From contig NZ_LSZH01000015.1 in NCBI RefSeq assembly GCF_001647545.1, forward strand, positions 124,001 to 188,000: DNA of 64,000 bases, read 5' to 3'. Under the pieces are notes generated by a model. The model searched no databases. It was not told where the DNA came from and saw only the letters and a program-made list of their open reading frames with translations. Source of the stretch: Acinetobacter sp. SFB. Lineage in GTDB: Bacteria > Pseudomonadota > Gammaproteobacteria > Pseudomonadales > Moraxellaceae. Each line of letters begins with the position of its first letter. The stretch's first letter is position 1. Below are positions 31,496 to 52,326 of the stretch, piece after piece. A program made the position numbers and the translations under genes.

Positions 31496-32497
31496 GTGTT
31501 CCCATTCAATTTAGATCATCAGGCAGGGGTGATGTATGCCATTCATACCTTTGTGGATGTATGTCTTAATTTTGATATGCCGAATGAAGCGTTCATTTTC
31601 AACCTAGAACACTTATGGTGTGCATTTGAAGCGTTTAAACAAGAAGGAATTGAGTACGCAGCATCGATTAGGGCGTTTGTTGCAGTCACTGAATACGTCA
31701 ATAGTCAGCGTCGCATGCTTAATTTTGGTGAATATCTATCAGGGTTGCCTATAGGCGAAATTAAGGCATTAAGACGAATCCTGCATGCGCATCGAGGGGT
31801 GATACGTGAGGAGATCAAAAGCTTTACTAGACGGAAAGAATTGAATCGAGTGGCGTTACTTGAGGAGTTCGAAGGTGCAATTAAAGCCTATCATGAAGTA
31901 TTGGTGATCAGGGTAGATTTATACTATTCCAAAGATCGTCTGATCGAAATTACCATACATGACTTCTATCAGCATGTCGGAAAACTACGTGATTTGATTA
32001 CGGATAAGAATGGATATTTTGATGCACTTTTGACTTATGCGATTGCGCTGGAGCATGGAATAACCAAAGGCTTTCATGTGCATCTGGCATTGGTTATTAA
32101 TGAGTCCAAATATCGCAACGATTATAATATTGCTAAATGGGTGATTGAAAAATGGCAGGAGATCACTCTTGGAAAAGGGTATGGATGGAATAACAACACG
32201 ACAGAAAACAAAAAGAATTATCGCGATCAAGGTACTTTAGGGATTGGGATGATTCGTCGTACAGAGCCTGATCAAGGCAATAATGCTTTAAAAACCGTTG
32301 CATATCTCAGTGATCTTGAAAAATACAGGCAGACGTTATTGGTTAAACCACGAGGACGCAGAACCTTTTATAAAGGGGATTATCAGCATCATGGTCGCCC
32401 TATACCTGATACAGAGGAAAATAGAAGAATCAAAGAATGGAATGCACAGACTGCTTTAGCAAAGCTGGAAGAGGAGGTTTGGTTTAAAAAAATATGA
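31496..32497 (+). CDS. Inovirus Gp2 / YagK-YfjJ family replication protein (HUH type)
   Basis: A 333-residue protein starting at GTG. The segment ITKGFHVHLALVINESKYRN contains the His-hydrophobic-His motif (His194, His196) of HUH relaxases/replicases. Further on, NNALKTVAYLSDLEKYRQ contains the tyrosines expected for the nicking residue. This arrangement is that of the YagK/YfjJ C-terminal family and inovirus Gp2-like proteins, known from cryptic prophages of E. coli. The protein should nick one strand at an origin and start rolling-circle replication of the excised element. An 11-bp inverted repeat covers its ribosome site. The next gene starts 42 bp later. Confidence 0.75.
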   Translation: MFPFNLDHQAGVMYAIHTFVDVCLNFDMPNEAFIFNLEHLWCAFEAFKQEGIEYAASIRAFVAVTEYVNSQRRMLNFGEYLSGLPIGEIKALRRILHAHRGVIREEIKSFTRRKELNRVALLEEFEGAIKAYHEVLVIRVDLYYSKDRLIEITIHDFYQHVGKLRDLITDKNGYFDALLTYAIALEHGITKGFHVHLALVINESKYRNDYNIAKWVIEKWQEITLGKGYGWNNNTTENKKNYRDQGTLGIGMIRRTEPDQGNNALKTVAYLSDLEKYRQTLLVKPRGRRTFYKGDYQHHGRPIPDTEENRRIKEWNAQTALAKLEEEVWFKKI

Positions 32498-32539: not shown

Positions 32540-33511
32540 ATGAGTAATTTAGCATTAGAGTTTACAGCTGCACGCTTAGAACAAAACATGATTGAGCATT
32601 ACAAAAGACTCAAATTTGAGCGGGTTCCAGAAAGTGTTGAGTTCAACGATTATAAAAATTCTTTAAATCAGGAGTTAAAACAAAAACTTATGAGCTACTT
32701 TGATGATTGGCGTATCCTGATGGTGGCTTGTGGAGGGCAGCACAAGTTTTCATTTTGGGTGGATGCTTTTTATCGTGCTTATAGCAGTGTGTTACTGGAA
32801 TCAGGTGCTCCATATTTTACAATGGAGGGTACTACCACAGCTTCTCATTACAATGATCAAGCATCTGCACATATTGATAAAATTTTGAAGCGTCTGAATA
32901 AGTTATTTAAAAGTGCAAGCTTTTTAGAACAACTTCAGCAGCATAATCAGCATTACATGAAGCAGATCGACAAAATTCGTGAATCCTATTGTGCGGTGAG
33001 TGAAATATATCCCAATGCTATTGATTTGAAATTTGAACTGAGTCTAGAAGGATTGCACAATCAATGGATTGATATCTCTGGGTGGAATAATTTGCTTTAT
33101 CACTTTCAAAAGCAGCTCAGACAACTCTCTTGGTATAACGCCCAAGCCGTATTTACGTTTTATCAGGTTATTCGGGTTGATCAACGCTATATTGTGAAAT
33201 TCTTTCTGACCCTAGACCCCTTATTGTATGGCGAACCTTCAGTGTATAGTCGAGAAATAGATATCTGGTGGAAAAGGGTAACTCAAAATAGGGGGATTTC
33301 GTTTTGTCCACTAGTAGACTTTCAGCAATATCAACATGAAGACGAATATCAACTAATTATCAAAAGGAATACTCAGGATCAAGTTTTAGACCCTTTAAGT
33401 GCCTTAGATGAGATGCCTGATCGAGAAACCAGTAGCGAAGGTTTAGCCAATAGAATCTGTGTTTATCCTAAAGGTTTTAAATGGTTTCACGGCGCACCCG
33501 TACGACGCTAA
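32540..33511 (+). CDS. Unknown island protein downstream of Rep
   Basis: 323 residues from ATG 32540, which has AGGAC at good distance; an in-frame ATG at 32498 touching the previous stop is possible but lacks a ribosome site. It is soluble, with no signal peptide, and helical in the middle (HIDKILKRLNKLFKSASFLE). The motif-like block KFSFWVDAFYRAYSSVLLES is unassigned. It is probably co-transcribed with the Rep gene and may assist replication. No family is recognised. Confidence 0.6.
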   Translation: MSNLALEFTAARLEQNMIEHYKRLKFERVPESVEFNDYKNSLNQELKQKLMSYFDDWRILMVACGGQHKFSFWVDAFYRAYSSVLLESGAPYFTMEGTTTASHYNDQASAHIDKILKRLNKLFKSASFLEQLQQHNQHYMKQIDKIRESYCAVSEIYPNAIDLKFELSLEGLHNQWIDISGWNNLLYHFQKQLRQLSWYNAQAVFTFYQVIRVDQRYIVKFFLTLDPLLYGEPSVYSREIDIWWKRVTQNRGISFCPLVDFQQYQHEDEYQLIIKRNTQDQVLDPLSALDEMPDRETSSEGLANRICVYPKGFKWFHGAPVRR

Positions 33512-34099
33512 AAATTCATATTACATTCCTGTACTTGCTTGACGCATCTAAGATGCTCAGATTATCCTTAGCCTGCTGACCTACATCGTCAGTCGGTTTT
33601 GACAGACCGTTATCATCTAGCACATCAAAAAAGTAATTTTTTGGTGGCGAACTCGTTCGTCCCCCTTCGTTGCGGTAGGGCGAGGGAGGGACGCCTTGTG
33701 CGTGCCGGTTCCTAGATGACTGGTCTGTCAACCCTTTCTCGTTCTGCCACCATCATTTGACAGTGACTTGGTAGAACTTCTATATCATCTAGGAGTACGC
33801 CATGCGCTTACATCAATACCATCCCTTATTTTTCTCTTTTTCAGTATTTGTGCCGTTGGGTGATTAGACCTGATGCTGTGCAGTCAGTGCATAGCTGTGT
33901 CTATCGCTTTTTAAGAATAAAACTTTTTCAAATACATATTACCGATATGAAGATGAATCTCTAATGCTGTTTTGAGCTAAGTAGATCTGTACGCTTTATC
34001 GTCTATAAAAAATTCAAAAACTTAGATATTCATTCCAACCAATATTGCATGGGGGACACTGGATCTGCTGAAGACCAGTGATGCCTGTAAAAAGAGAAA
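33512..34099. other. Non-coding region with a strongly structured GC-rich core
   Basis: 588 bp between the Rep operon and the exported-protein cluster. The first 270 bp fold into nested hairpins (see the separate entry). The rest (33800-34080) is AT-rich with no frame I trust; a small hairpin CACTGGAT.../...GACCAGTG (about 34057-34080) stands just before the next gene. Confidence 0.6.
33598..33782. ncRNA. Structured element: putative ssDNA replication origin or structured RNA
   Basis: An outer stem is formed by GACAGACC...ATCATCTAG (about 33599-33620) and CTAGATGA..GGTCTGTC (about 33713-33730). Inside are CAAAAAA/TTTTTTG (33626-33643) and a GC-rich part where GGCG...GTCCC pairs with GGGAC..GCC. 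A further hairpin GTTCTGCCA/TGGTAGAAC (about 33751-33778) follows. The segment is GC-rich in an AT-rich element and lies behind a HUH Rep gene. A 71-codon frame read through it on the minus strand looks like a by-product. Confidence 0.5.
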
Positions 34100-34366
34100 A
34101 TGACTATGTTAAAAACTTTCCTAAAAACTACCCTGATTTCATCACTACTTGCAGGTGCATCATGGGCGCAAGCAGGCTGGTTTGCGCAAGCCAGTGAAGC
34201 CTATTTTGTTCAGGCCCGAAATTTGGGTGGCGGGGTCTATCAGTGCATGTATAAAACCAATCCGGGCAATCGCGGCTGGCGGAATTTCACGGTGAACTTT
34301 CAGGGTGGCTGCCCGCGCTTCGTTCACTTTAATGCTCAGAATGGTCAAGTCTCTGTACCGAACTAA
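34100..34366 (+). CDS. Small exported protein (88 aa)
   Basis: Signal peptide MLKTFLKTTLISSLLAGASW with cleavage after AQA. The mature part of about 62 residues has two cysteines (VYQCMYKT and FQGGCPRF) that could form a disulphide, and aromatic/Gly-rich strands. ATG 34100 or 34106 is possible. It is the first of three exported products in a row. No family is recognised; a surface, coat-like or entry-exclusion role would be guesswork. Confidence 0.65.
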   Translation: MTMLKTFLKTTLISSLLAGASWAQAGWFAQASEAYFVQARNLGGGVYQCMYKTNPGNRGWRNFTVNFQGGCPRFVHFNAQNGQVSVPN

Positions 34367-34384
34367 ATGGTGGGGAGATTTGAG

Positions 34385-34954
34385 ATGAACCAAAAAACCA
34401 TATTGGCCTTAGCTGTTATTCTGGCTTTGACTATTGTGATTGTGTCCGGATTCTATTTTTTCAGTACTAAGCCGAATGTTCAGAAGCCTGTGCAAACAGC
34501 TGAAACCGCGGTGCGTGATATGCCGGTCTCAGAAGCTGCTGCTTCAGAAGGCATTCCTGCTGCGGAAGTTGATGGCATTGATGTGGAGGAATTGACTGCT
34601 GGAATTAAGCAACCAAGCTCTGTACAGCATCAACCTAAGCTGCTGAAATTTGAGCTGGATCAAAGCCTGAAAGCGACAGATACCTTGCTGTCCATGCTTC
34701 CTTATGCAGACCTACCTGAATTTGAACAGAAAAATGTAGATAAGTATCAGCAGCTCGTCTTTGCCAAAGCCTCTCAAGATACCGGTAAGCCCGTGAGCGG
34801 TTTTAGCTTGCAGGAACACGGCGCATTAGAGTCGGAACAGGCGGGCAACCGTTACTACGTCTATAAATTTGATAATGGCGCAGACTGTAAAATTCATCTG
34901 GTCAGTATTGATTTAGAGACAGGTGATTACGGCGTGAGCTACAACTACTGCTGA
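34385..34954 (+). CDS. Membrane-anchored periplasmic protein (189 aa), unknown
   Basis: MNQKTILALAVILALTIVIV forms an N-terminal anchor; the rest is outside. It has an Ala/Glu/Pro-rich linker (about 28-75) and then a folded domain with a cysteine pair near the end (DCKIHLV, SYNYC). GGGGAG is 8 bp before ATG 34385, so the earlier ATG at 34367 is not used. It lies 18 bp after the small exported protein and 11 bp before the lipoprotein gene, clearly one operon. Confidence 0.65.
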   Translation: MNQKTILALAVILALTIVIVSGFYFFSTKPNVQKPVQTAETAVRDMPVSEAAASEGIPAAEVDGIDVEELTAGIKQPSSVQHQPKLLKFELDQSLKATDTLLSMLPYADLPEFEQKNVDKYQQLVFAKASQDTGKPVSGFSLQEHGALESEQAGNRYYVYKFDNGADCKIHLVSIDLETGDYGVSYNYC

Positions 34955-34965
34955 GGATAAATTTT

Positions 34966-35346
34966 ATGAATACATTTTTTAAATCGATCCTGCTGGCAGT
35001 AACGGCTGCTGCAGGCATGATGCTGTCAGGGTGTAGTTCTAGCCTTGATCCTAATACTTTTACCGTTGAAATGAATGTAGTAGATACCAGCAACTGGTAT
35101 GCGCAAAACCAAGCGGCAAATGTCATCACCATTCGTTCCAACAGTCCAGATCCGATTAATGTCACCAATGTGCTGATTAACAACGGTGAATGCAGTTATG
35201 AAGGCTATCGCAGATCGTTGGAGTATCCGCAGCATTTTAAAATGGGACTGCGTTTAAGGCTGAAATTAACTGGCTGCAGTTACGATAATGTCGTACGTGT
35301 CGATGTTGAAACAGAACAGGGAACAGCGAGCTATAGCTTTCAATAG
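34966..35346 (+). CDS. Small lipoprotein (126 aa)
   Basis: Signal peptide with lipobox LSGC (MNTFFKSILLAVTAAAGMM then LSGCSSS), so it is lipidated and membrane-attached. The mature domain is beta-rich with two cysteines (NNGECSYEGY, LTGCSYDN). GAGGATAAATTTT precedes ATG. It is the third exported protein of the cluster and ends with TAG followed by a terminator. No family is recognised. Confidence 0.68.
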   Translation: MNTFFKSILLAVTAAAGMMLSGCSSSLDPNTFTVEMNVVDTSNWYAQNQAANVITIRSNSPDPINVTNVLINNGECSYEGYRRSLEYPQHFKMGLRLRLKLTGCSYDNVVRVDVETEQGTASYSFQ

Positions 35347-35415: not shown

Positions 35416-35466
35416 ATGCCCTTAATTCAGCTCGTCGTACTCAATTCATTTCACAAGGAATATTCA

Positions 35467-35769
35467 ATGTCCTTAATTCAATGCCCTTATTGTCAGTCCA
35501 CTCATGTCAGACAGATGGATTCAAGTCATGCAAACGCCAACTATTTCGAACAACTGCAACGCTGTATTTCACCCACACAGATGGCGCTGTTCGGCATGCA
35601 GCTTGCCAAAAAAGCAGGATTTCCACCTTTTACAGGCGCAGCCATCGGTGTTGTTGTCGGTGGTGTATTGGTCATCGTCAGTCAGTACTGCTATGAAAAA
35701 TATTATAGCAATGCAGAGCAGTATATCTGTCAGGACTGCCATCAGCATTTTGCTTGGGCCCAGTCTTAA
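35467..35769 (+). CDS. Zinc-ribbon protein with one membrane helix (100 aa)
   Basis: An N-terminal CPYC (MSLIQCPYCQSTHVRQ) and a C-terminal CQDC (YICQDCHQHF) would form one zinc ribbon across the chain. A hydrophobic helix GAAIGVVVGGVLVIVSQY lies between. ATG 35467 with AAGGAATATTC is preferred; ATG 35416 adds an unlikely leader derived from a partial repeat of the same sequence (ATGCCCTTAATTCA / ATGTCCTTAATTCA). Function unknown. Confidence 0.6.
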   Translation: MSLIQCPYCQSTHVRQMDSSHANANYFEQLQRCISPTQMALFGMQLAKKAGFPPFTGAAIGVVVGGVLVIVSQYCYEKYYSNAEQYICQDCHQHFAWAQS

Positions 35770-35842: not shown

Positions 35843-36889
35843 ATGGCACATCAAATTGAAAAAATGGCTTATGTCGGAGACACCCCTTGGCATGGTCTTG
35901 GCAATCAGCTCGCGCAAAACCAGCCGATTGAAGTCTGGGCGAAGCAGGCAGGCATGGATTGGCGTATTGAATCATCCAATGTCAGCTACATGGCACAAAA
36001 TGAACGCGGGCAAAGCATCATCATGCCCTATGAAGAACAGCGCGTACTTTACCGCTCGGATACCCATGCACCTCTATCTGTGGTCAGTCAGCGTTATCAG
36101 GAAGTCCAGCCTGCTGAGGTATTGGAGTTCTACCGTGATCTAACTGAGCAATCAGGTTTTGAATTGGAAACAGCAGGCGTATTGAAAGGAGGTAAGAAAT
36201 TCTGGGCTTTGGCTAAAACTGGGCAGACTACAGCACTTAAAGGCAGGGATGTCAGTAATGGTTATATCTTGCTGGCAACGGGTTGTGATGGAACACTAGC
36301 GACTACGGCGCAATTCACCTCAATCCGTGTAGTCTGCAACAATACTTTGGCGATTGCGTTAAAAGGACAAAACAGCAGTGCAGGCGTGGTCAAAGTCCCG
36401 CACAGCACTCGCTTTGATGCAGATAAGATCAAGCAGCAGTTGGGAATTTCTGTCCGAGCATGGGATGAACATATGTATGAAATGAAACAGCTCAGTCAGC
36501 GTAAAGTGACTCAAAGCGAAGCAGCAGCTTATTTTGATGCCGTGTTTAACAATATTAGCTTGAGTCCAGCGGAACAGGATGAAGGCATTATTCAATTCTA
36601 CCGCAATGTCGCTACCCAAGCCAATTCAGCTACCAAAACTGACAAAAAGACGGAGCCGAATGGCCGTGCAATGTCTAAAGTCATGACTATGTTTAACGGG
36701 CATGGACGCGGGTCAGAACTGAGTTCAGCTAAAGATACCGCTTATGGTTTGTTATGCAGTATTACAGAATTTTCCGATCATGAACGTCGCGCCATGAGTC
36801 AGGATCATCGCCTAGATTCTGCATGGTTTGGTGCAGGTGCAGGACTCAAGCAGCGTGGGTTGGAACAGGCTTTACGCATGTTGTCGTAA
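35843..36889 (+). CDS. DUF932 (phage/plasmid-like) protein
   Basis: A 348-residue soluble protein with the DUF932 landmarks: MAYVGDTPWHGLGNQL at the start, WRIESSNVSYM, LYRSDTHAPLSVVSQRYQEVQP, GFELETAGVLKGGKKFWALA and FTSIRVVCNNTLAIAL. Members are carried by plasmids, prophages and integrative elements (for example YfjQ-like genes in E. coli cryptic prophages). The function is not established; a role around element replication or anti-defence is speculative. TAGGTACAGGAATT lies upstream of ATG. Confidence 0.85.
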   Translation: MAHQIEKMAYVGDTPWHGLGNQLAQNQPIEVWAKQAGMDWRIESSNVSYMAQNERGQSIIMPYEEQRVLYRSDTHAPLSVVSQRYQEVQPAEVLEFYRDLTEQSGFELETAGVLKGGKKFWALAKTGQTTALKGRDVSNGYILLATGCDGTLATTAQFTSIRVVCNNTLAIALKGQNSSAGVVKVPHSTRFDADKIKQQLGISVRAWDEHMYEMKQLSQRKVTQSEAAAYFDAVFNNISLSPAEQDEGIIQFYRNVATQANSATKTDKKTEPNGRAMSKVMTMFNGHGRGSELSSAKDTAYGLLCSITEFSDHERRAMSQDHRLDSAWFGAGAGLKQRGLEQALRMLS

Positions 36890-37083
36890 AACGGGTCTAG
36901 CCTTGCTGCTCAGGACTTCAAATTTAAAAGTGGATTTGTGTAGGGTACTTAACTGTAATTGTGGGATGCATAAATACCGTGGATTAGATGGAAATGGACA
37001 ACATAAGTTTCCGTAAAATTTTATGGGACTGCCCTATGATCTGAGCGAATACCCGCTCGCATCAATGATTAGGAGTAAACATC

Positions 37084-37679: not shown

Positions 37680-38267
37680 ATGAATAAAACTATCAACTAT
37701 TACAATGAAAATGCTGATCAGTTCTTTGCAACAACTTATCAAGTTGATATGAGCAGTTTGTACCAATCATTTTTAAAATATCTACCAAGATACGCTTCTA
37801 TTCTCGATCTGGGCTGCGGCTCAGGTCGAGATGCGTTAGCTTTTAAAAATTTTGGTCATCAGGTAGAGGCAATTGATTATTCAGAGGTGCTCGTTGCAAA
37901 AGCCAAACAGCTCACGGGAATCAATGTAAGACAGCAAAGCTTCTACGAGCTGGATGAGCGAGATAAATATGATGGGCTTTGGGCATGTGCGTCGTTGTTG
38001 CACTGTGAGCGTGAATGTTTAGCTGATGTGATGCTAAGATTATTAAAAGCACTTAAAGTGAATGGTGTCTTGTATATGTCATTTAAGTATGGCGATGGTG
38101 ATCGAGAAAAAGATGGACGTGCATTTACGGATTTAAATGAACAGCAGGCGCAGGATTTGCTGGATCAGGTGATGGGCTTTCAATTATTAAAACAATGGAT
38201 CACTGTAGATCAAAGACTGGACCGAGAAGAAAAGTGGTTAAACCTGCTGTGGAAAAAGCATGCTTAA
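37680..38267 (+). CDS. TehB-like class I SAM methyltransferase, paired with an HNH nuclease
   Basis: 195 residues. Motif I is ILDLGCGSGRDALAF (about 41-55), then an acidic strand end VEAIDYS, and GLWACASLLHCER in the motif IV region. It is closest in pattern to small-molecule/TehB-type methyltransferases rather than to DNA methylases with DPPY. The stop overlaps the start of the HNH gene by 8 bp, so translation is coupled. The pair is likely the first cargo module of the island. Whether it acts on DNA as a restriction-modification pair is doubtful without a target motif. Confidence 0.75.
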   Translation: MNKTINYYNENADQFFATTYQVDMSSLYQSFLKYLPRYASILDLGCGSGRDALAFKNFGHQVEAIDYSEVLVAKAKQLTGINVRQQSFYELDERDKYDGLWACASLLHCERECLADVMLRLLKALKVNGVLYMSFKYGDGDREKDGRAFTDLNEQQAQDLLDQVMGFQLLKQWITVDQRLDREEKWLNLLWKKHA

Positions 38268-39273
38268 TTTAGTCCCAACTGCTCAAGAGCAATTAAAGTT
38301 TTTGAAAAATATTCAGCTGATTTTGCAATCTGGCAGTTTTAGTAGCACCTATAAGTTTGCTTTACTTATTAGCCTAAGCAGATTAGCTATTGAGAAGGGA
38401 CAGGATTCAGGTGAAGGTCTAGCGCTAGAGTATGGGGATATTGCTGAGAAATTTATTGAGCTGTATTGGAAGCAAGCAGTTCCTTATACGTTTAATGAGG
38501 GCAGCAAGCTAATACTTAATCAGAATAATGGTAAACAAGCGGCAATTGTAAATAGAATCATTTCGCTGAGGCAGGCTTATGCATCACTCGGCTTGCTGCG
38601 CCGTGATTCCTTGGTATGGTTTAGTTTATTGAAAGATGTAGCAAGAACTGTAAAAGAAATGCCAGTGCGCTATCTGCAAAATATAAGCGGTCAAAATTTC
38701 GAATTCTTATATAGGCTTGAGAAGTGTGGAAAGCAGTTGATCCTTTTGCCGCAGGTTATGTATTGCTTAAGACAGTTCAGTGAAATTATTGAGGAGTTAT
38801 GCCAGAAGCGCTGGATCGACTACATCCGTAAGAATAGCAACAATGCGCCAATTCTGAATAAATTGCCGAACCTCGAACAATTTATGTTTGAGCCCAACCG
38901 GAATCAGCTTAATGCAGTAGCCCATATTTTGGTAGAATTACAAGAGTGCAGATGCTTCTATTGCAATAAGTCAATGAAAAAAGGCAATTATGCCGTTGAT
39001 CACTTTATACCGTGGTCTATGTATCCATCGGATACAGGGCATAATTTCGTGTTAGCAGATGCGAGTTGTAATTCTAAGAAGAGTAATTTTCTTGCCACAG
39101 ATGAGTTTTTACATAAATGGCAGGAACGTAATCACACTCAGGATTTGGTCATTATAGATCGGATATCTGTACTGGGCTTTCTCACAGATAAGGATAGATC
39201 ACATAAGGTTGCAGAATGGGCATATGCTCAAGCAGAAGAAAATGGCTATTTGCTATGGTCCAATAAGCTGTAA
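38260..39273 (+). CDS. HNH endonuclease
   Basis: 337 residues. The HNH/treble-clef module is near the C-terminus: CRCFYCNKSM, then YAVDHFIPWSMY (catalytic His) and ADASCNSKKSNFL (Asn and second Cys pair). The N-terminal 230 residues are helical with no known motif. Translationally coupled to the methyltransferase. Predicted function is DNA cleavage in a defence or element-competition module. It ends 4 bp from the convergent PD-(D/E)xK gene. Confidence 0.8.
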   Translation: MLNLVPTAQEQLKFLKNIQLILQSGSFSSTYKFALLISLSRLAIEKGQDSGEGLALEYGDIAEKFIELYWKQAVPYTFNEGSKLILNQNNGKQAAIVNRIISLRQAYASLGLLRRDSLVWFSLLKDVARTVKEMPVRYLQNISGQNFEFLYRLEKCGKQLILLPQVMYCLRQFSEIIEELCQKRWIDYIRKNSNNAPILNKLPNLEQFMFEPNRNQLNAVAHILVELQECRCFYCNKSMKKGNYAVDHFIPWSMYPSDTGHNFVLADASCNSKKSNFLATDEFLHKWQERNHTQDLVIIDRISVLGFLTDKDRSHKVAEWAYAQAEENGYLLWSNKL

Positions 39274-39277
39274 GTAT

Positions 39278-41188
39278 CTACATATATGTCGAGTATCGAT
39301 CTATAAACAGTTGATGGTCATAAAACTTTAAGAAAGGTTTAAGAGCCAAGTAAATATCTTCTTTCAACTTAATATCTATCCATGATTCATCCGAATAAAT
39401 ACATTCAGCCATAGCTCTGAAGATATGTTCAATTTCTTGGTTATTCATTAAAAACTCTTCATTTTTTACTCTTTTCTGAAGCGCTGTTAAAAGTTCTTTA
39501 AAATTTGAAAATTGTTCATTATAAAAATCAAGTTTTGATGAAATATATGAAAAATATCCCTTCGCATTTTCGACCAAAGGGATTAGGCATAGGTACAATT
39601 GAGCTATTTCATTGACAGTGAAATAGGCACGATTACTTTTAGGGGAAATATAAAAACTTTGTAGAACATCGATAGTCTTCAATATGCCTTGGGTTCGATA
39701 GTGGTGATCTTTTAATAATGAAAACTTACGAATATCTCTAATATAACCATAACTTTCTAAATCTTGAATATTTTGAACTTTTCTTGCGGAACTAAAGTAA
39801 AAAAACAAACTTTTCTTTCTATTCCAAGCAATTACTTTGGGAATGAGCTGGTTTATTAACCATTCAAATGATGTTTGACAAGGCCACCATTTTTCTTCAG
39901 ATACAGGGATTTTGCTGAGAGGAGGTTGCCACAATAAAGTAAGTTCATCGGTATCATTGATGCCTTCTATATTTTCTGCCCAAAACATACCATGATAAAC
40001 ATCTTCTATAGGTTTTCCTCTTTCTCCAGTGTAAAGCTGTATGAAATTTCTAGATGCTGAAAAAATATGCCATTCAGTATTGCCTTTATCTACATCATGG
40101 GCATTCGTAAATTTAATCAGTAAGTCCCAAATTTCCTTCGGCAAAGCAAATAAGGCGATATAAGTTTGACCATGCCATGTAATAAAGGGAAAGTTATGAG
40201 AAGCCCATTCATTTTCAATTTTTTGTATTGCTGCTAGATAAGCTTGCGTGAGATTATCTGCGACCTCAATAAGTTGCTGTATAGCTGCATTAGGTAGGTT
40301 AAATCGACAATTTTGTAAATCAATGATCTCAGAGTGGGCTATATCTTTACCAACATAAAATGGTCTATAGCGAGAGTTGATAGGTTGTCCTAAGTTTCCT
40401 AAAAAATTTTCTAACATCCATTTATTTTCTAGAATAACACTTACCCCGTGAGCATCATGAGTTTTAATCGTAAGATTGGCAGAGCCGACATGGTTTTCTG
40501 TGGGTAAAAGAGCTGAAATTTCTACCCATTTTTTTTTAATTTTCCAAATACCATCTTCAGAATATGTTTCATCAAAGTCAGAATAATTTATTGAAGAAAA
40601 ATGTAGAAATTCATCAGCGGCACCTCTATGGTTTTTGACTGGATCAATTAAGGCTTTATGTAGTGTTGAGATAAAGTGGGTTCTAAGCATCCATTCATTA
40701 TAAAATCGGCTTTCTGGTGCCATCGGAAAGAATTTGCTGACAATATCTGGATAAGGTTGAGATTTTATTGTTAGCGTTACGCCAGTCCATAGTTCTGCCT
40801 CAATTCCTAAGCAATGTAGTTCATGATGAATTTCATCCCATTTTTTTCGAATATTTCTTGGTAAATCTTCTTGGGCAAGGATAATGACATATTTTTTTAT
40901 ATTAGAGATTAAGTCATTTTGCTTGAACTTTTTTACAGTGTTGCCTAATTCTTGAGTCGATAATTTTTTCCAACATTTACATTCATATGCAGCAAGTTTG
41001 TTAGAGGATTTCACAATATTTGCGCATATATCAAGTCCTCCTTGGTAGTACCCATTGCCTGCTATTCGATGAACATTTGTCAATTCTTTATCTTTATATA
41101 GCAACCATTCGCAATATTGCTCAAATTGTTCACTTGAAAGTTGCGAGAATGGTAAAGTTGTAGCATCAAACGGGATGTAATTTTTCAT
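39278..41188 (-). CDS. PD-(D/E)xK nuclease-domain protein with large unknown C-terminal region
   Basis: 636 residues. The N-terminus has the Mrr-type restriction fold: LSSEQFEQYCEWLLYKDKEL, then GGLDICANIV with Asp53 and YECKCWKK with Glu69 and Lys71, the D...ExK set. The other 540 residues are unassigned and contain long mixed helix/strand regions; no helicase or ATPase motif is visible. It ends with TAG. It is divergent from the SEFIR gene (238-bp shared upstream region) and so may belong to the same system. Very AT-rich. Predicted role: DNA-cleaving effector in phage defence. Confidence 0.65.
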   Translation of the reverse strand: MKNYIPFDATTLPFSQLSSEQFEQYCEWLLYKDKELTNVHRIAGNGYYQGGLDICANIVKSSNKLAAYECKCWKKLSTQELGNTVKKFKQNDLISNIKKYVIILAQEDLPRNIRKKWDEIHHELHCLGIEAELWTGVTLTIKSQPYPDIVSKFFPMAPESRFYNEWMLRTHFISTLHKALIDPVKNHRGAADEFLHFSSINYSDFDETYSEDGIWKIKKKWVEISALLPTENHVGSANLTIKTHDAHGVSVILENKWMLENFLGNLGQPINSRYRPFYVGKDIAHSEIIDLQNCRFNLPNAAIQQLIEVADNLTQAYLAAIQKIENEWASHNFPFITWHGQTYIALFALPKEIWDLLIKFTNAHDVDKGNTEWHIFSASRNFIQLYTGERGKPIEDVYHGMFWAENIEGINDTDELTLLWQPPLSKIPVSEEKWWPCQTSFEWLINQLIPKVIAWNRKKSLFFYFSSARKVQNIQDLESYGYIRDIRKFSLLKDHHYRTQGILKTIDVLQSFYISPKSNRAYFTVNEIAQLYLCLIPLVENAKGYFSYISSKLDFYNEQFSNFKELLTALQKRVKNEEFLMNNQEIEHIFRAMAECIYSDESWIDIKLKEDIYLALKPFLKFYDHQLFIDRYSTYM

Positions 41189-41426
41189 AAATTAAAATTA
41201 AGTCGATTAAATTTTACTTTTGAGTATTAAATTTTAAAGACCATCATATTTTATTTTCAACGGATTCTAAACTATTTTAAATCCTAATTATTTGATAGTG
41301 CTTATAACTTAAGTTTAAAAATTAACGACTTCTATAATCTATTGAATACTATTGTTTATTTAATTGTTTTTGCGCTTAAAGAATAGTAAGTTGATTGAAG
41401 TTTGGATAAAAAGAGAAAAATTTTTC

Positions 41427-42890
41427 ATGTCTGCGCCAAAGTTATTTATTTCCTATAGTTGGACTTCTACTGAGCATGAGGATTGGGTTCTGAGGTTAGC
41501 TCATGATTTAACAGAGTCAGGTGTAGATGTTAAATTTGATAAATGGGATTTAAAAGAAGGGCAAGATCCTTATTACTTTATGGAACAAATGGTTGCAGAT
41601 GAGACTATTGCTAAAGTCATTATGATTTGTGATCAAAAATATAAAAGTCGAGCTGATGACAGGGAAAAAGGGGTTGGTATTGAAACGCAGATTATTTCTT
41701 CAAAAATTTATAATGAGGTTAAGCAAACGAAATTTGTAGCTGTTATTGCAGAGGTTGATGATAACGGGAACCCTTTTATACCAGTATATTACTCGGGAAG
41801 AATCCATATTGATTTGAGTAATGATGATAAATATACGCAAAATTTTGAACAGTTAATACGATGGGTATTTGATAAACCCTTGCATCAAAGACCACAGCTA
41901 GGTAAGCCACCACAATATATTTTAGAAGAAAAAGTTTCTTTGCTTGGGATTGATGCACTAGCAAGGCGATGTATAGATTTGCTCAAGAGAGGAAAGCCCA
42001 ATGCTCAAGGAGCGATAAATGAATATTTTGATACATTATTAGAGAATTTAAATAGATTTAAATTAGAGTATTCTGATGATTTAGAACCAGTTGATCATGC
42101 AACATTAATTTTTAATAGAATTGAAGAGTTTAAGCAACCTCTAGAACAAATTATTAGAGTGCTATATACAATCGCTTCACATGCTGCAACTGAGGATAGT
42201 ATGTTAACTCTTCATCGTTTTTTTGAGGGAATGTCACAATATTTCTATCCAGATTCAAATGGAAAAACGAGCTATAGCTATAGAGAGTGGGATTTTGATT
42301 TTTATAAATTTATTGCACATGAACTATTTCTCTATACATTAGCAATTTTTATAAAAATGGAAAAATTCTCTATAATTTCATTTTTACTAAACCACCCTTA
42401 TTATTGTTATAGGGGATCTAGCCGATCAAAAAAGATCAAGCAATTTGACTTTTTAAATGAAGATATTGAATCTCTTAAATTTTACTTTTCAGAAGTTGAG
42501 GGGAAAAACTGGTATTCATCATTTGCTGAGCTTATTAAAAGAAGATTTTCAATAAAATTTATAGGACTGGATCGTTTATGTCAGGCAGACTTTATTTGTT
42601 ATTTAAATTTGATGTCTAAAAATATAGAAAGTAGTCGTTATGATTATTGGAATCCGACCTTGCAGCTATATCATGATGGACATGATTCTTATGAAATTTT
42701 TGCCAAATCTATTTCAAAGAAATACTGTGAAAAAATACTGCCATTATTAAATATTAATGCAACTTCTAATTTAAAAGAGTTATTGGAAAAACTATCTAAT
42801 AATCCAGATATGATTCCAAGAGTAGGAGAATGGGGGAAGTTACCTATTAAGCGATTGTCCAATTATGACCTACTTTTAACCTTACCTTAA
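41427..42890 (+). CDS. SEFIR-domain (TIR-like) protein, predicted defence effector or signalling component
   Basis: 487 residues. Residues about 5-150 form a SEFIR domain: KLFISYSWTSTEHEDWVLRL, then DVKFDKWDLKEGQDPYYFME, AKVIMICDQKYKSRAD, and GVGIETQIISSKIYNE. The downstream 330 residues are helical and unassigned. Bacterial SEFIR/TIR proteins can hydrolyse NAD+ and trigger abortive infection. ATG 41427 begins the conserved domain almost at once; the longer upstream frame begins with a non-ATG codon. The next gene, an Avs-like STAND NTPase, starts 9 bp after the stop, so the two form an operon. Confidence 0.8.
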   Translation: MSAPKLFISYSWTSTEHEDWVLRLAHDLTESGVDVKFDKWDLKEGQDPYYFMEQMVADETIAKVIMICDQKYKSRADDREKGVGIETQIISSKIYNEVKQTKFVAVIAEVDDNGNPFIPVYYSGRIHIDLSNDDKYTQNFEQLIRWVFDKPLHQRPQLGKPPQYILEEKVSLLGIDALARRCIDLLKRGKPNAQGAINEYFDTLLENLNRFKLEYSDDLEPVDHATLIFNRIEEFKQPLEQIIRVLYTIASHAATEDSMLTLHRFFEGMSQYFYPDSNGKTSYSYREWDFDFYKFIAHELFLYTLAIFIKMEKFSIISFLLNHPYYCYRGSSRSKKIKQFDFLNEDIESLKFYFSEVEGKNWYSSFAELIKRRFSIKFIGLDRLCQADFICYLNLMSKNIESSRYDYWNPTLQLYHDGHDSYEIFAKSISKKYCEKILPLLNINATSNLKELLEKLSNNPDMIPRVGEWGKLPIKRLSNYDLLLTLP

Positions 42891-42899
42891 TTTTTAGAT

Positions 42900-45800
42900 A
42901 TGCCAGAATTAAATTTTTCAAATATAAGAACTTTTGACGGTAGTAAAGATGGTGGATTTGAAGAGTTGATCTGCCAGTTGGCTCATCTGTGTCCTCCCGC
43001 AAATGCTCGAACCTTTGAAAGGAAAGAGGGGGCTGGTGGAGATGCTGGTGTAGAGTGTTATTGGATACTTGATGATGGTACAGAACATGCTTGGTAGGCT
43101 AAATACTTTTTAGAGAATATTGATGATTCTCAATGGACTCAAATTAGTGATTCAGTTTTAACAGCATTGGATAAACATCCCAATATCACAAATTATTATG
43201 TTTGTATTCCTCAAGATTTACCAGATAGCCGAAAAATGGGGCGTGGAGGAAAGCAGGTCGTAAGTGCCAGAGATAAATGGAATATTCATTGCAATAAATG
43301 GGAAAAGGAAGCTCTAAAAAGAAATATGCAGGTAAATTTCCATTTTTGGGGGAAGCATGAAATTTTATTAATGTTAAGCCAACGGGATAATCCATTGTTT
43401 AATGGACGAGCAAGATATTGGTTTGATGAATTAATCCTAACTAAAGATATTTTTGAAAAAATCATTAACAGGTCTAGGTTTTCCTTAGGTGATCGTTTTA
43501 CGCCAGAATTTCATGTGGATCTACCTATAGCTAAAATATTTGAGGGCTTAGGACGAACAAAAGAATATACAGAATTATTGAACTATAATGTGTATGAGTG
43601 GCTTTCCATAGTTGGTGAGGTTGAAAAATCTATTTTACGTTTGGAAAGTTGTGATAAAAATTATTTTAAATATTTAGTTGAAAATATAAGTTATCAAGAT
43701 AAATGGAATTTAATAAATACTACTATTAAAGACCTAAAAAATAGTTTGAAAAATAAAGATTGGTTCTCTAAGTTAGAGATATATGTTTCAGTATTGACTG
43801 AAATTCAAGAATTTTGTTCTGAACTTGTTAAAATTTATCATATTGCTTCTGATTATAAAAAAACTGTAGAAACCGTAAGAATACATCAAAGTGATATTTA
43901 TAAATTTAGTGATATAACAAATAAACTATTGAATTTTCTTATAGATAAAATTACTCAAGCTGCTTATACAAGGCAGTTTTTATTACATGGTGATGCTGGG
44001 AATGGTAAGTCTCATATGTTGTGTGATATTGCTTTAACGAGAATGGGTAAGGGATTATCTACAGTATTTATGTTAGGGCAGCATTACCAAGGTGGTAATC
44101 CATTAGATTTTTTAAAAAGAGAATTAGATTTAGCAACAATAGATGATAGTACACTTTTAGGAGCATTGGATGCTTGTGGAGAAGCAGATAAGTCTAATCT
44201 TCTGATTATAATTGATGCAATTAATGAGGGGCGGTTTAGTCGAGATTGGAATGACTGGTTGATCAGCTTTTTTCATCAAATTAGCCAATATCCACATATA
44301 AGTATAGTTGTCAGTTGTAGATCTACCTATCTTAATTATATATTTCCTGAAGATTTAAGAAGTAATATTACTCAACAAGAACACAATGGATTTAAAGGGT
44401 TTGAACATAGAGCTGCTTCGATTTATCTAAATAGACAGGGGATTGTTAAGCCATCTGTACCTATATTAGCTCCTGAGTACACGAATCCCCTTTTTCTTAA
44501 GACATGCTGTAAAGCAATAAAACAAGCAGGTCTGAGTGAGTTTCCTAAAGGGTTACATGGAATAGTAAATATTTTTGAGTTTTATATTCAAAGTGCTCAA
44601 AATAAGATTTCTAAAGTTAAGGGATATAGACCGCATGAAAAGGTTGTTTATAATGCCTTACTGCGGTTAGCAGAAAAACTCTTTCCAGAAAATGTTTATG
44701 GGTTAAAATTTGAAGAAGCATTTGAATTAATTAATAGTGTAGACTCGCGTAATGGTTCAGGTGAATATTTATATGATTTGATGCTAGAAGAAGGGCTGAT
44801 ATCTGAAGATATTGAGTATAATAGAGCAGATGGTCAAACGAATTCTGATGTGGTGGTTCGTTTTACTTTTGAAAGGTTTAGTGATTACTTAATTGCTATT
44901 AGTATAATGGCTGGCATACAAAGTATTCCTGAACTAGAAGCAGCACTTTATGAAAATTATAACTTTCAACTTCTAAAATCAAAACAGAACAGCTTTAAAT
45001 TTTTAGGCATCTGGTCTGCACTTAATATTATCATAGCTGATAAATTTAAAACTGAGTTGATTGACCATTTTCCTATTGAAACTCTAAACTATTATTTTTT
45101 CGAAGAGATTTTTGTTAAGACTCTAATAAGTCGAAGCACAAGTTCATTCACTGATAGAACAATAGAAATTTTTAACCAAATTCCTAATAAGTGTTATGAA
45201 AATCATAGGATAAATATTTTATTTGCATTAGCAACAGAACCTACTCATAAATTGAATGCAGTTTTCTTAAATGATTGGCTTAAAAATATGTCTCTCTCTT
45301 CAAGAGATTCTTATTGGTCAACTTATGTGGCATATGCTGATGAAGTTGAAGAGGAACATGAAACAGAGTCCAACCTTAGAGCATTAATCGAATGGGCTTT
45401 GAGTAAAGAGATTTCTTTAGCAGAAGAAGAACGTCTATACCTATGTTCTATAACATTAACTTGGATAACATCAACTACAAATAGAAAGTTACGAGATGAA
45501 GTAACTAAGGCAGTTGCCCATTTACTATGCTTTATTCCAGAGGAAATAATCTTATTTCTTGAAAACTTCTATGAAATAAATGATCCTTATATTAATGAAA
45601 GAGTTTACGCTATTGTCTATGGGGTCTTAACAAATCTTCAAAATAACTCTTATACATCTAAAATAAGCCAATGGATTTTTGAACATCACTTCAAAGATAA
45701 ATATCCATATCCACATATTCTATTAAGGGACTATATTGTCAGTATATTGCTGTATGCAGAACATAAAAAAAGTCTTCCTACTGATATAAAAAGGGAATCT

Positions 45801-47525
45801 TTTTTACCACCTTATAAGCAGAAATGGGCTTTAAACGACCCTATTGATGTCCTGAATATTGCTGATCAAGATAAAAATGAGATTTATTACTCTGTTATGA
45901 GTTCTATGTCAGATTTTTACTGCTACAGTATGAGAGCTATTGATGAAGTTACTTGTACTGAATTAGATATAGAGGATATGAGGGTAGGATTAGATGAGAA
46001 AATAAAATTTGCAAAAGAATTACCTGCAAATTTAGCTACTGAGTTGGAAGCTTTGATTTTGGAAGAAGCAGATTATCTTTTGATGAAAAAATTAGAAGAA
46101 TCTAAATTATGGAAATCTTTAAATTTTGATAAAATTTTGGAAGAAATTTCTAATAATAGAACAAAGCAGATTGCTCTTGATCCAAATCCAGAACCTAATG
46201 AAATTATTAATTTTAATAAAAATAATGAGAAAACAAAAATACAATTATTTTTAGAAAATAACAAAGATAAATTGAATTCATTGCAACAAATTAGAGCTAA
46301 ATGGATATTTAAATTATCTAATTTCGAAATTGTAATGCAATCAAAAAAGCAAGCACAGCGATGGATTTATTTTAGAGCAATGCAACTTGGTTGGAATAAT
46401 GAACTATTTGAATCATTTGATAGAAACTTACCTTCTAGTGGAGGAAGTAGACCTTTGATAGAGCGAATCGGTAAAAAATATCAATGGATTGCTTATCATG
46501 AATATTTAGCCTATCTAACAGATAGCTTCCAAGTGAAGCCTGATAATCATTTCCTTGAAGCGGTTTCTACTGATTATCTTGGTAGTTGGCAATTGGGTGT
46601 AAGAGATATCGATCCAACATTATTGATTAGAAGAACAGGAGATGATGGTTGGTCAGTAAATAACACTAATACATGGTGGCAACCAATTTCAATAAAATTT
46701 GCTATGAGTGATAAAATAAATGAATTACAGGAATGGCTTTGGACTGAAAAGAACTTACCGCAGTTTAATAATGCTCTTATAGTAAAAGATGAGTGCGATA
46801 TAAATTGGTATGCTTTAGCAGGCTTTGTAAAGTTTAGAAAAGAACCAAAATTGGACAAAGATAAAATTCCATATCAAGATTTCTGGTATAGAATTAATCC
46901 GGTTTTGATATCTAATCAATGTTTTTCTGAATTTAAACAAAAAATTTTGGGGCAGGAGCTTTGTAATCCTGATTTAATTGAAACGCTTCGAATTGGATAT
47001 CACTCTTTTCTAGGTGAGCATTGTTGGCATCCTTGTGTAGATGATTATCTAAAGGATTTATCAGACGGTTTTGGATGTAGATTGAATCAGATAGAAGAAA
47101 AATTAGAAGCCTTTTCTCCAATTTCAAAATATGAATATGAGAGTAGTACTAATGATGCTTCTGTTAAAGAAGGTATAAACTTTTTTCTTCCTTCACCACA
47201 ATTGATTCATTCATTAGGTTTAAAGAGAAAAGCTTTGTCTGTTAATAATTGGGTTGATTCTTCAGGTCGAATTATTTTTCAAGATCCAAGTGTTGATGAA
47301 AGTGGTTCAAGCTTTGCTTTGTGCAGAAAAGATATCCTTGATAATTGGTTGGAAAAAAATGATTATCGAGTGGTTTGGTTAATAGGAGGTGATAAGAAAG
47401 TTTTAACGGAATTTAATCATGATTTTTATGGGCGCTTAAATTTTAATGGTTTTTTTTCAGTAGAAAAAAATATTATAGATGGTAATGTTTGGACAACAAA
47501 GACTAAACCTAATAAGGATAATTAA
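42900..47525 (+). pseudogene. Avs-like nuclease-STAND NTPase, interrupted by one amber codon at the nuclease active site
   Basis: One frame of 1,541 codons. The N-terminus is a Cap4/Mrr-like PD-(D/E)xK nuclease (NIRTFDGSKDGGFEELICQL, FERKEGAGGDAGVECYW with Asp48, then HAW-stop-AKYF). The STAND NTPase core follows with Walker A LLHGDAGNGKSHM (Gly364 onward) and Walker B NLLIIIDAINEG near 435. A long C-terminal helical-repeat half probably senses phage proteins, as in AVAST systems. The TAG at 43095-43097 replaces the residue that is Gln in the (E/Q)xK motif of relatives (WQAKY). No frameshift exists elsewhere. Downstream TTG/ATG restarts could give an NTPase lacking the nuclease. Assignment to a numbered Avs type is not possible by eye. 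Confidence 0.8.
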
Positions 47526-47661
47526 CTAGTTGAATATATAAGTAGCTGGAATGATAAATATTTAACCCTGTTATTTAAATCCTTTTAGGAGTAGGAAAAT
47601 TTAATCTTCCAAGGTTTATATGTGTTAGTTCAGACTTAATCTGAACTAACACAGTTTCGGG

Positions 47662-49449
47662 TTACCATGTTTGCATTTTAAATAATCTACCTTTTTCTCC
47701 ATCGTCATGTAGAAGAACAGTAATTTCTGTGTCAGCAATCCACTCACGAACTTTTTCATAATCATTTGGTGTATCTGATTCAATCATAGTAATGACTTGT
47801 TGGATTCCTTCATTTCCAAGAGAGCGCATCTCTTTAAGTAGATTTTCTTTCTTCCTATCATCCAAAGTTTCAAAAACTCCGTCATGAAAGACGAAATGAG
47901 GGAAATTTTTAGTTTGATAAGTTTTTAGTAGTGCTAAGTCAAAGGCAATACATAATAGTTTTTTATAAGAATTACCTTTATCAGCACTTGTTTTGTTTCC
48001 TGTAGAATCAAGAAGGTTTGCAGAAAAGCTAACATGATTTTCATTATTGAGATTCACAGAGATCATGGCTGGTTCTGAAATTACAGAATTGACTAAATCG
48101 CTAAAATATAGTCGAATATTCGCAAATGCAGATTCAGAGTTTGAAGCTGTATTTGATTCAATACTATTTTCTATTGTTGATATTACTTTTTCGTAATCTG
48201 ATTCTTTTATGCGAATCAAATTTTGTATTTCTTTGGCTTCTTGAAATACTAGGCTTTGATCTTGAAGATAAGAAATATTGCTTTTAATAGTAGCAATTTC
48301 ATTAGCAAGAATTTTATATTTATCTAAAATATCATTAGAATTTAACAGCTCTAAGCTTTCAGAACGTTGAATATTTAAGTCTTTTAGAGAGTTAGATAAT
48401 TCATTAATTTGCTGTTCAAGTCGGTTTTTTTCTTTTAATAAGAAAGAACGTCGTTCTTTCAAAATATCATTGTGAAACTCAATCAACTGGTTGTAATCCT
48501 TAACAACCTGATCATTAAAAATAATCCCAATATCTTGAAAAAGCTGTTGAGTTTCTTTTACATTAAATTTGATTTTTGAATCAGACAATGAAATGTTGAT
48601 TTGGTCTAAATTAGCTTTTTGATAGTACAGATCATTATTGATCTTACGGATATCTTTTCCAAATTGCTTCACTAAATTGTCAGTAGTAATTTGATCAACA
48701 GAACTAAAGTCTAGAGAATTCAATTGATCCTCTTTAATCTTTAGGGTCTGATTTTTAATTGCAATTAAACCTTCAATTTCGGATATATTTTTTGCTTCAA
48801 CAGTAGGTAAGATTTTTTTCTTCTTATCTTTAAGATCTTCTAATTCAGATTCAATCTCATACGACTGTTCAATTGCTTGAGAGTCTAAACCTAAGATTTT
48901 AGCTAATAATGGTTTCCATTGAGAATGTGCCCCTTTAAAACCTAGGTCAAATGGGTCATCAAAATCATTTTGACTTCTTAGTAAATATCCAATCACTTTC
49001 CTGAAAGAGTAAGGGGAAATTTCCGTTAAGTTTAAATAGCTATCTAATAAATGCTTCGATTTATCATATCCAACTTCAAAATGATCCCATTGATCATCGG
49101 GAATATTTTTATAGTCTTGAAACTTTTCTTTATGCTGTTTAAAACTGAATTTTGAGCCATTTTCTACACTTCTTCGAATTGTGAGAAACGTTCCAGTTTG
49201 TAATTCAATTTCAAGAAAAAAAATAAACGATTCAAATTGTTTATTAGCAAACAAGAAGAAGTCTTTATCCTTTTTTGAAACTAAGCAAAAATTAATTAGG
49301 TCTCTAAGTGTCGATTTTCCTAAATTATGAGTATCTTTTTCAGTATTTGTTAATAGTCGAATTTCAGCTAAGACAACATTCAATCCACTATTAAAGTTAA
49401 TGTCATCAAAATACTTTTGTTGATTACTGTATAATTTAGATAATTTCAT
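47662..49449 (-). CDS. ABC-3C system ATPase (SMC-like, DUF2326 type)
   Basis: 595 residues. It is a split ABC ATPase: the N-terminus (KLYSNQQKYFDDINFNSGLN, then HNLGKSTLRDLINFCLV, a variant P-loop with GKST) and the C-terminus (FPHFVFHDGVFETLDDRKKE, Walker B-like) flank a long coiled coil (about 195-420). This is the layout of DUF2326/ABC-three-component ATPases. It is the last gene of a three-gene minus-strand operon, overlapping the middle gene by 4 bp (ATGA). Predicted to bind DNA or nucleoprotein and control the nuclease component. Confidence 0.82.
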   Translation of the reverse strand: MKLSKLYSNQQKYFDDINFNSGLNVVLAEIRLLTNTEKDTHNLGKSTLRDLINFCLVSKKDKDFFLFANKQFESFIFFLEIELQTGTFLTIRRSVENGSKFSFKQHKEKFQDYKNIPDDQWDHFEVGYDKSKHLLDSYLNLTEISPYSFRKVIGYLLRSQNDFDDPFDLGFKGAHSQWKPLLAKILGLDSQAIEQSYEIESELEDLKDKKKKILPTVEAKNISEIEGLIAIKNQTLKIKEDQLNSLDFSSVDQITTDNLVKQFGKDIRKINNDLYYQKANLDQINISLSDSKIKFNVKETQQLFQDIGIIFNDQVVKDYNQLIEFHNDILKERRSFLLKEKNRLEQQINELSNSLKDLNIQRSESLELLNSNDILDKYKILANEIATIKSNISYLQDQSLVFQEAKEIQNLIRIKESDYEKVISTIENSIESNTASNSESAFANIRLYFSDLVNSVISEPAMISVNLNNENHVSFSANLLDSTGNKTSADKGNSYKKLLCIAFDLALLKTYQTKNFPHFVFHDGVFETLDDRKKENLLKEMRSLGNEGIQQVITMIESDTPNDYEKVREWIADTEITVLLHDDGEKGRLFKMQTW

Positions 49450-49688
49450 GAATCAATGAACTCAATTGAGTCTGTTTTGATATGGTATTTAATTTTACCT
49501 AATAAAAACAAAATGCTAAGTGCTGGTATGAATAAAAATTCGCCGCCTTCAATGTTTTTCTCTATAAAAGATTTCAACTCATTAAAGTTACAAATTCTAT
49601 TCTTTGCTAAATATTTAAGCATTAAAGTAGCTGCATAAATTGCAGTTTGGTCTGGGTTTGTGTGTTTAGTTGGTAATACATAGCTCAT
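49446..49688 (-). CDS. ABC-3C system middle component (80 aa)
   Basis: A small all-helical protein (MSYVLPTKHTNPDQTAIYAA, then LMLKYLAKNRICNF, then a strand pair FLLGKIKYHIKTDSIEFID), as expected for the small winged-helix-like middle component of ABC-three-component systems. Both ends overlap neighbours by 4 bp, which shows strict translational coupling and supports membership in one complex. Confidence 0.78.
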   Translation of the reverse strand: MSYVLPTKHTNPDQTAIYAATLMLKYLAKNRICNFNELKSFIEKNIEGGEFLFIPALSILFLLGKIKYHIKTDSIEFIDS

Positions 49689-52053: not shown

Positions 52054-52074
52054 TGCAATGGTTTCCGTAGAAAT

Positions 52075-52126
52075 CTGGGGGTATAAAAATAGGGGTAAAT
52101 TATTATACCCCCAGTTATACCCCCGA
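52075..52126. promoter_or_regulatory. Integrase upstream repeat cluster (CTGGGGGTATAA / TTATACCCCCAG and a further TATACCCCCGA)
   Basis: A perfect 12-bp inverted repeat (52075-52086 and 52103-52114) plus a direct second CCCCC word up to 52126, just upstream of the integrase start. It matches the CCCCC pair at 27918-27940 near the other end. Likely arm-type or AlpA-type binding sites that also control int. Confidence 0.65.
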
Positions 52127-52169
52127 CTAGATCGGGATTGCAACAGATAAAGTTGATACTATCAGACAC

Positions 52170-52205
52170 AAAAAAAGCCTAAACCCTTTAGATTTAAGCT
52201 TTTTA
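52170..52205. terminator. Hairpin between integrase and tRNA-Ser
   Basis: AAAAAGCCTAAA / TTTAAGCTTTTT; on the minus strand it would end the tRNA transcript. A near copy flanks the left att site. Confidence 0.7.
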
Positions 52206-52236
52206 AGACCTCGTGAATCATCATGAGAGTAAAATG

Positions 52237-52326
52237 TGGCGGTGAGAGAGGGATTCGAACCCTCGATACGCGCAAACGTATACACACTTTCCAGGCGTGC
52301 TCCTTAAGCCACTCGGACACCTCACC
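52237..52326 (-). tRNA. tRNA-Ser (anticodon GGA)
   Basis: A 90-nt class II tRNA with a long variable arm and encoded CCA. The acceptor GGTGAGG pairs with TCTCACC. The anticodon stem-loop contains CTGGAAAG (anticodon GGA) and the T-arm TTCGAAT. The gene is complete and serves as the integration target; its last 17 bp are the right att core. Confidence 0.96.

Follow-up and report, generated by a model that had tools for sequence, protein, structure and literature searches.

The GC-rich structured element at 33598-33782 of the window, that is the 64,000-nt stretch of Acinetobacter sp. SFB analysed here, belongs to a known RNA family. Judged from its sequence it is a full-length phage-type C4 antisense RNA, accompanied by its own matching target sites on a predicted common transcript. 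We consider it very probable that this C4 module serves as an antisense off-switch for a mobile gene cassette, with a code shared between the RNA and its targets. The features of the module and of the cassette are summarised in Table 1.

Table 1. Features of the C4 module and of the downstream cassette (window coordinates).
Feature	Position	Strand	Basis or remark
Sigma-70-like promoter TTGACG-18-TATCCT	33539..33568	+	single site found; 1.7 expected in region shuffles, no evidence alone
c4-a1b1-like element (RF03163), 5' leader including the a1 hairpin	33562..33613	+	28.3 bits, sub-threshold
a1 site TTGACAG, complement of a', in the loop of hairpin 33594-33609	33599..33605	+	8 contiguous pairs with own a'
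b1 site ATCATCTAG, complement of b'	33612..33620	+	uninterrupted run of 8 pairs with b'; changes code jointly with b' and b2 in relatives
A/T hairpin in the linker from b1 to the C4 RNA	33622..33647	+	folding conserved, 99 distinct segments
C4 antisense RNA core (RF01695)	33668..33754	+	55.5 bits, model 1-87 of 87
b' loop TTCCTAGATGA of hairpin P3	33709..33719	+	structure line of the Rfam alignment
a' single-stranded segment CTGTCAA	33725..33731	+	structure line; pairing tests
Competing hairpin GTTCTGCCA/TGGTAGAAC, a2 in the loop	33741..33777	+	weak covariation
a2 site TTGACAG, complement of a'	33757..33763	+	7 contiguous pairs with a'
b2 site ATCATCTAG (33784-33792), running into Shine-Dalgarno GGAG	33784..33795	+	10 contiguous pairs with b'
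21-codon ORF MRLHQYHPLFFSFSVFVPLGD, ATG at 33802, behind the b2-overlapped Shine-Dalgarno	33802..33867	+	proposed direct target
88-aa protein, signal-peptide-like N-terminus (by eye), cassette gene 1	34100..34366	+	ORF and relatives
195-aa cassette protein, hydrophobic N-terminal segment (by eye)	34367..34954	+	
126-aa lipoprotein-like cassette protein (by eye)	34966..35346	+	
117-aa cassette protein, zinc-ribbon-like N-terminus	35416..35769	+	profile match below cut-off
DUF932 protein, last conserved cassette gene in the window copy	35843..36889	+	profile match

The match to the Rfam C4 model covers its full length and clears the gathering score of 45 bits. The preliminary description of this DNA had proposed a set of nested stems, and these are present beyond chance: 33596-33830 folds with -78.6 kcal/mol, where dinucleotide-shuffled versions give -60.2 +/- 4.6 (z -4.0, none of 200 as good). 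Taken alone, the C4 stretch (33655-33760) forms its own long stem with a less striking energy (z -2.0, 8 of 200 shuffles as good). The A/T stem of that description corresponds to a linker hairpin whose folding is conserved in the genus (99 distinct segments covering positions -58 to -8 relative to the core have a mean z of -2.5 against mononucleotide shuffles). As for the proposed outer stem, the complementarity of GACAGACC..ATCATCTAG and CTAGATGA..GGTCTGTC is real, but the preferred interpretation is a1-b1 lying opposite b'-a' of the C4 RNA. For the hairpin said to follow the inner stems, GTTCTGCCA/TGGTAGAAC, covariation across loci is weak but exceeds that of shuffles (29 distinct arms, six loci left out; on average 5.24 contiguous pairs compared to 4.42, z 4.4). 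As it draws on the 3' side of the C4 stem, this hairpin competes with C4 folding.

Conservation and covariation of the stems had been named as the check to be made, and the outcome is strong. We aligned 84 distinct cores of the genus using MAFFT, without fitting the alignment to the structure, which was taken from Rfam. The three-stem structure is kept in that 92.3% of the cells are paired, and 16 of 27 pairs are changed on both sides, a result that none of 500 shuffles equalled. Sliding the partner by 1-3 columns lets the pairing fall to 41-54%. In 47 of the 84 cores, the window among them, one outer pair (columns 3-86) does not form. The element is a structured RNA, as had been suggested, yet not a new one. 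A 71-codon frame on the minus strand, listed earlier as the gene that might compete with this view, was rejected, as it is not conserved: of the 17 sequences of the window's class that were examined (window included), 13 have a stop after 3-4 codons and 2 after 35-38, and the frame is about 70 codons long only in the window and in L033.

In the C4 layout, a' and b' of the RNA are complementary to an upstream a1/b1, and RF03163 (c4-a1b1) is named for it. The layout includes a second pairing of a'/b' with downstream a2/b2 at a ribosome-binding site (in part after PMC5320573). Here, RF03163 aligns over its full length (1-53, E 4.8e-5 in a search of 701 bases) directly ahead of the C4 RNA. The motif ATCATCTAG had been reported to occur three times around the element. 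Two exact copies are in the window (33612 and 33784), while the third is inverted, agrees in 8 of 9 bases and lies inside the C4 RNA as TCATCTAG on the minus strand (33712-33719). Over the whole window this number of copies, inverted one included, is no rarity, being reached by 7 of 100 shuffles; the repeats owe their weight to conservation. From the sequence we read them as the predicted pairing sites of the C4 RNA, namely b1, b' (the inverted copy) and b2. The duplex of the b' loop with b2 and the Shine-Dalgarno bases amounts to -15.9 kcal/mol. Membership in the C4 family rests on structure and target layout, whereas the module is a variant in what it controls.

The pairing of the RNA with its own locus was evaluated for 123 C4 loci of the genus, merged to 108 distinct ones by joining identical loci (L001 and L032 are the same place, as are L036 and L112). 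As measure we used the longest Watson-Crick run of a' or b' with the flanking DNA, comparing the own locus to loci with different a'/b'. Own runs are longer at all four site pairs, with means of 7.97 vs 4.67 for b'-b1, 7.55 vs 4.56 for b'-b2, 7.56 vs 4.28 for a'-a1 and 6.54 vs 3.76 for a'-a2. Runs of at least 7 pairs are found in 91, 80, 105 and 87 of the 108 loci, respectively. The sampling is weighted to a few genomes with ~20 copies each; with a single representative per code, leaving out L092 and L142 where P3 was mis-parsed, the 52 b' codes give 7.71 vs 4.74 at b1 (z 21.0) and 7.00 vs 4.58 at b2 (z 17.3), and the 11 a' codes 7.09 vs 4.52 at a1 (z 7.2) and 6.45 vs 4.25 at a2 (z 6.6). In 20000 permutations for each of the four site pairs, the observed value was never reached. 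Moreover, the duplex energy with the downstream partner is -12.1 kcal/mol on average for the own locus and -7.8 kcal/mol for others. A promoter-like site whose start lies 115-140 nt upstream of the core is found in 89 of the 108 loci, with 1.3 of 108 expected from mononucleotide shuffles.

Both downstream sites are present in 86 of 106 loci (again without L092 and L142). The other 20 keep a1 but lack a downstream b2 by the cut-offs used, and 19 of these come from two genomes whose C4 loci were sampled almost completely. Repression in cis is thus not universal. Loci without b2 that keep a1/b1 include L114, L116, L119, L132, L134, L139, L140 and L141; by eye, a downstream AACTCC...GGAGTT could sequester the Shine-Dalgarno sequence in a hairpin instead. 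Among 109 C4 units in five genomes, 107 codes are distinct within their genome. Shuffling a' among loci leaves duplicates as few (2 observed, 2.81 expected, P 0.43), hence no selection against duplicate codes is claimed.

Co-switching is seen most clearly inside the window's class. L036, L039 and L041 carry a code differing from that of the window at b1, P3/b' and b2 alike, and the 82 bases that separate b1 from the P3 hairpin are without exception those of the window. A few further changes are found between b' and b2, and the sequence ahead of the leader is variable too. L037, L040, L042 and L044 share the code of this group with more changes, and L043, L050, L053, L058, L061 and L062 have a third code in b1, b' and b2 alike, the changes being even more numerous. 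As the first spacer is unchanged, exchange of a single block does not explain the pattern; the three sites are kept matched. Two genomes with two cassettes each have different codes in their copies (L238/L248 and L235/L236). This would fit immunity types, although two cases prove little.

The genes behind the module are constant and those before it are not. The five cassette genes are linked to C4 in 16 of the 17 class loci, and the 17th (L071) stops at a contig end. A scan of genome contigs for the 88-aa gene found 18 copies, all in Acinetobacter and largely overlapping the class loci, and all 18 have a matching C4 module 336-369 bp upstream. The upstream neighbours vary between the class loci, including the Rep-like gene (31496-32497), which itself has only a weak YagK_YfjJ_C match below the cut-off. 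The position behind a Rep operon given in the preliminary description is correct, but the module travels with the downstream genes, and the idea that it is part of that operon is rejected. Cassette and module reside in chromosomes, with one copy on an A. johnsonii plasmid. The 88-aa protein has no match in Pfam or PHROG, and no relative of its gene was found in the viral contigs and phage records searched. Among the 17 class loci, 15 encode a YqaJ exonuclease, and a Gp3-like recombination directionality factor (RDF) is present in 14; L070 and L071 have neither in the sequence examined, and L078 lacks the RDF. In relatives such as L075, L077 and L080 both genes are located between DUF932 and AlpA. 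The window cassette lacks both (36890-37083), hence the switch may guard a decayed cassette here.

Further along the same island a defence cluster extends over 38260-50659. It comprises an HNH protein (38260-39273), bSEFIR (41364-42890), Avs2 (43167-47525), a PDC-M68B/LmuB-like protein (47662-49449) and an ABC-3C CTD12 protein (49685-50659). A tyrosine integrase with an Arm-DNA-binding domain (50884-52143, minus strand) adjoins tRNA-Ser(GGA) (52237-52326), and the island likely has its integration end here (50884-52326). No direct repeat of at least 18 nt resembling an att pair was found at the island ends.

Based on these data we propose the following course of events. A transcript starting from the promoter near 33539 would contain a1-b1, the C4 RNA, a2-b2 and the 21-codon ORF. 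By analogy to P1/P7 and to A. baumannii RNA-seq data, RNase P may free the C4 RNA by a cut at the GGT of its 5' stem. With its b' the free RNA would then cover b2 along with the Shine-Dalgarno bases ahead of the short ORF, and with a' it would cover a2. This pairing would block translation of the short ORF and thereby silence the cassette from the 88-aa protein to DUF932, in most loci also YqaJ and the RDF. In P1, the block is passed on by polarity within icd. In trans, the C4 RNA could likewise shut off this operon when a related element brings it in, and the a/b code would then define an immunity type.

Several observations count against such an off-switch. The c4-a1b1 match does not reach its gathering score (28.3 vs 46.7 bits), no intrinsic terminator was found in 33400-34200, and the 21-codon ORF ends 232 bp before the 88-aa gene. 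Among the five cassette proteins no Pfam or PHROG model match reveals a recognisable antirepressor. By duplex energy, moreover, only 16 of 56 codes have their own leader as the best partner, and 34 of 56 have it within the best three.

C4 RNAs are widespread in the genus. They were found in 127 of 149 Acinetobacter genomes examined, and in a family-wide draw in 47 of 149 genomes and 8 of 16 genera. The genome of the window has a single C4 RNA, and several others, presumably from relatives of A. baumannii, have 19-26; chromosome-sized records of A. baumannii itself show 10-12 similar places. Sorted by what lies downstream, the 108 distinct loci comprise 38 ahead of a TetR-type regulator, 13 of the window class, 22 with a lipoprotein-like ORF according to a crude signal rule, and 35 others. 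The TetR assignment was confirmed by Pfam for three proteins, and an annotated TetR regulator follows C4 in A. baumannii NZ_CP040085. The TetR-family genes behind these modules are paralogous (L002, L006, L046, L116 and 34 other loci; also L146), and many of these modules contain a conserved short ORF, of 28-31 aa in the MRT type.

Three genomes show head-to-tail arrays of three C4 units each (L011, G083:C1:255601-255856; L003, G146:C59:43859-44114; L180, G136:C1:232520-232775). The units are ~86 bp long with, by eye, a promoter-like site ahead, and come without a1/b1 or a2/b2. They have a common a' and differing b' loops, and the array differs between the genomes. It is possible that these tandem arrays act in trans as antisense arrays.

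Other readings of the element have to be weighed. The preliminary description had considered a DNA element, either a single-strand origin or a packaging hairpin of a filamentous-phage-like island. The strong folding and the Rep-like gene upstream, for all the weakness of its sub-threshold profile match, would suit such an element. However, the genes that stay constant are those downstream while the upstream ones vary, variation is concentrated in the loops matching a ribosome-binding site, with which they covary, the whole length of an RNA family model is matched, and no counterpart of the 88-aa gene was found among viral contigs or phage records. With this, a DNA function is hardly credible.

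A C4 relic co-opted for regulating chromosomal mRNAs in trans, its local sites being remnants, is another reading, in line with Weiss et al., who favour host targets for the A. baumannii Group 1 RNAs (PMC5320573). The 20 loci without b2 and the array units without local sites point in the same direction. Remnants, on the other hand, would not co-switch with the RNA, as both local sites do in the window class. Moreover, a single array-unit pattern searched in 173 genomes gave 2 matches, where a rough estimate expects ~2 by chance, and neither looks like a leader with a start codon; the reversed pattern as control gave 0 among the matches listed. We therefore regard this relic as quite improbable. 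Slightly better, but still improbable, stands a type I toxin-antitoxin pair in which the short ORF encodes a toxic or cell-division-affecting peptide like P1 Icd and, together with C4, stabilises the island. Icd of P1 inhibits cell division (PMC8198154), a 28-31-aa peptide is conserved in many loci of the TetR type, and in the class the start of the 21-codon ORF is conserved, with a synonymous share of single changes of 0.317 compared to 0.197 expected (15 distinct sequences). These are however pairwise counts that are not independent, and the C-terminus of the 21-aa peptide is variable and changes in length.

The code-matched off-switch can be set beside known systems. In P1/P7, C4 targets a1/b1 and a2/b2, with icd and ant downstream. 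The module resembles these C4 RNAs (RF01695) in the three-stem fold, with b' in the P3 loop and a' between P3 and the closing stem, and in two pairs of target sites with b2 at the ribosome-binding site of the first ORF, a small one. Unlike in P1/P7, no antirepressor was recognised, the ORF has only 21 codons, the window cassette consists of small envelope-type proteins and DUF932, and the module is found in chromosomes and a plasmid with many codes within one genus. As none of the five cassette proteins matches an antirepressor model, though an unrecognised one may be among them, we do not file the element under the P1-type C4/icd/ant immunity operon, for which the immI description of PMC8198154 served as reference.

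C4-like RNAs are known and abundant in A. baumannii, and the sections of Weiss et al. 2016 (PMC5320573) dealing with them report processing at GGW and propose phage or host mRNAs as targets. With the Group 1 RNAs described there the window element shares the genus, the Rfam motif and the GGW found at their processed 5' end, the GGT at 33674-33676 in the C4 5' stem matching this cleavage motif. Region 1 of Group 1 corresponds, in our own reading of that portion, to the a1-b1 leader by position and loop motif. Different from what is reported there, local sites match the RNA here and switch together with it. The sections of that paper dealing with these RNAs make no mention of local targets, and neither 'complementar' nor 'tandem' occurs in its main text. 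In the later literature we found no paper describing local targets of C4 or code switching in Acinetobacter. The accessible text of interactome papers of 2024 and 2025 contained no passage on C4 that we could find, and later papers mentioning C4 do so, in the passages available, only by citing Weiss et al. Thus the RNA family is already known, while its local targets and the joint switching of RNA and targets in Acinetobacter seem to be new, as we found neither in print.

A wider reading would join genus-wide code-matched C4 switches and target-less arrays into an RNA-array immunity against matching foreign elements. In that case dozens of a'/b' codes, diverging by co-switching, would be spread over portable modules that precede mobile cassettes, genes of envelope proteins and TetR-family regulator genes. 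We regard this combination as unlikely. If the immunity reading is true, mobile cassettes would fall into compatible types.

The targets of the Acinetobacter C4-like RNAs were left open in 2016, and the matched local sites reduce the question to an experiment with one reporter per locus. Moreover, the module offers a natural case of regulatory specificity in evolution, as an antisense RNA and two separate targets switch code together while 82 bases between the first target and the b' hairpin of the RNA stay identical.
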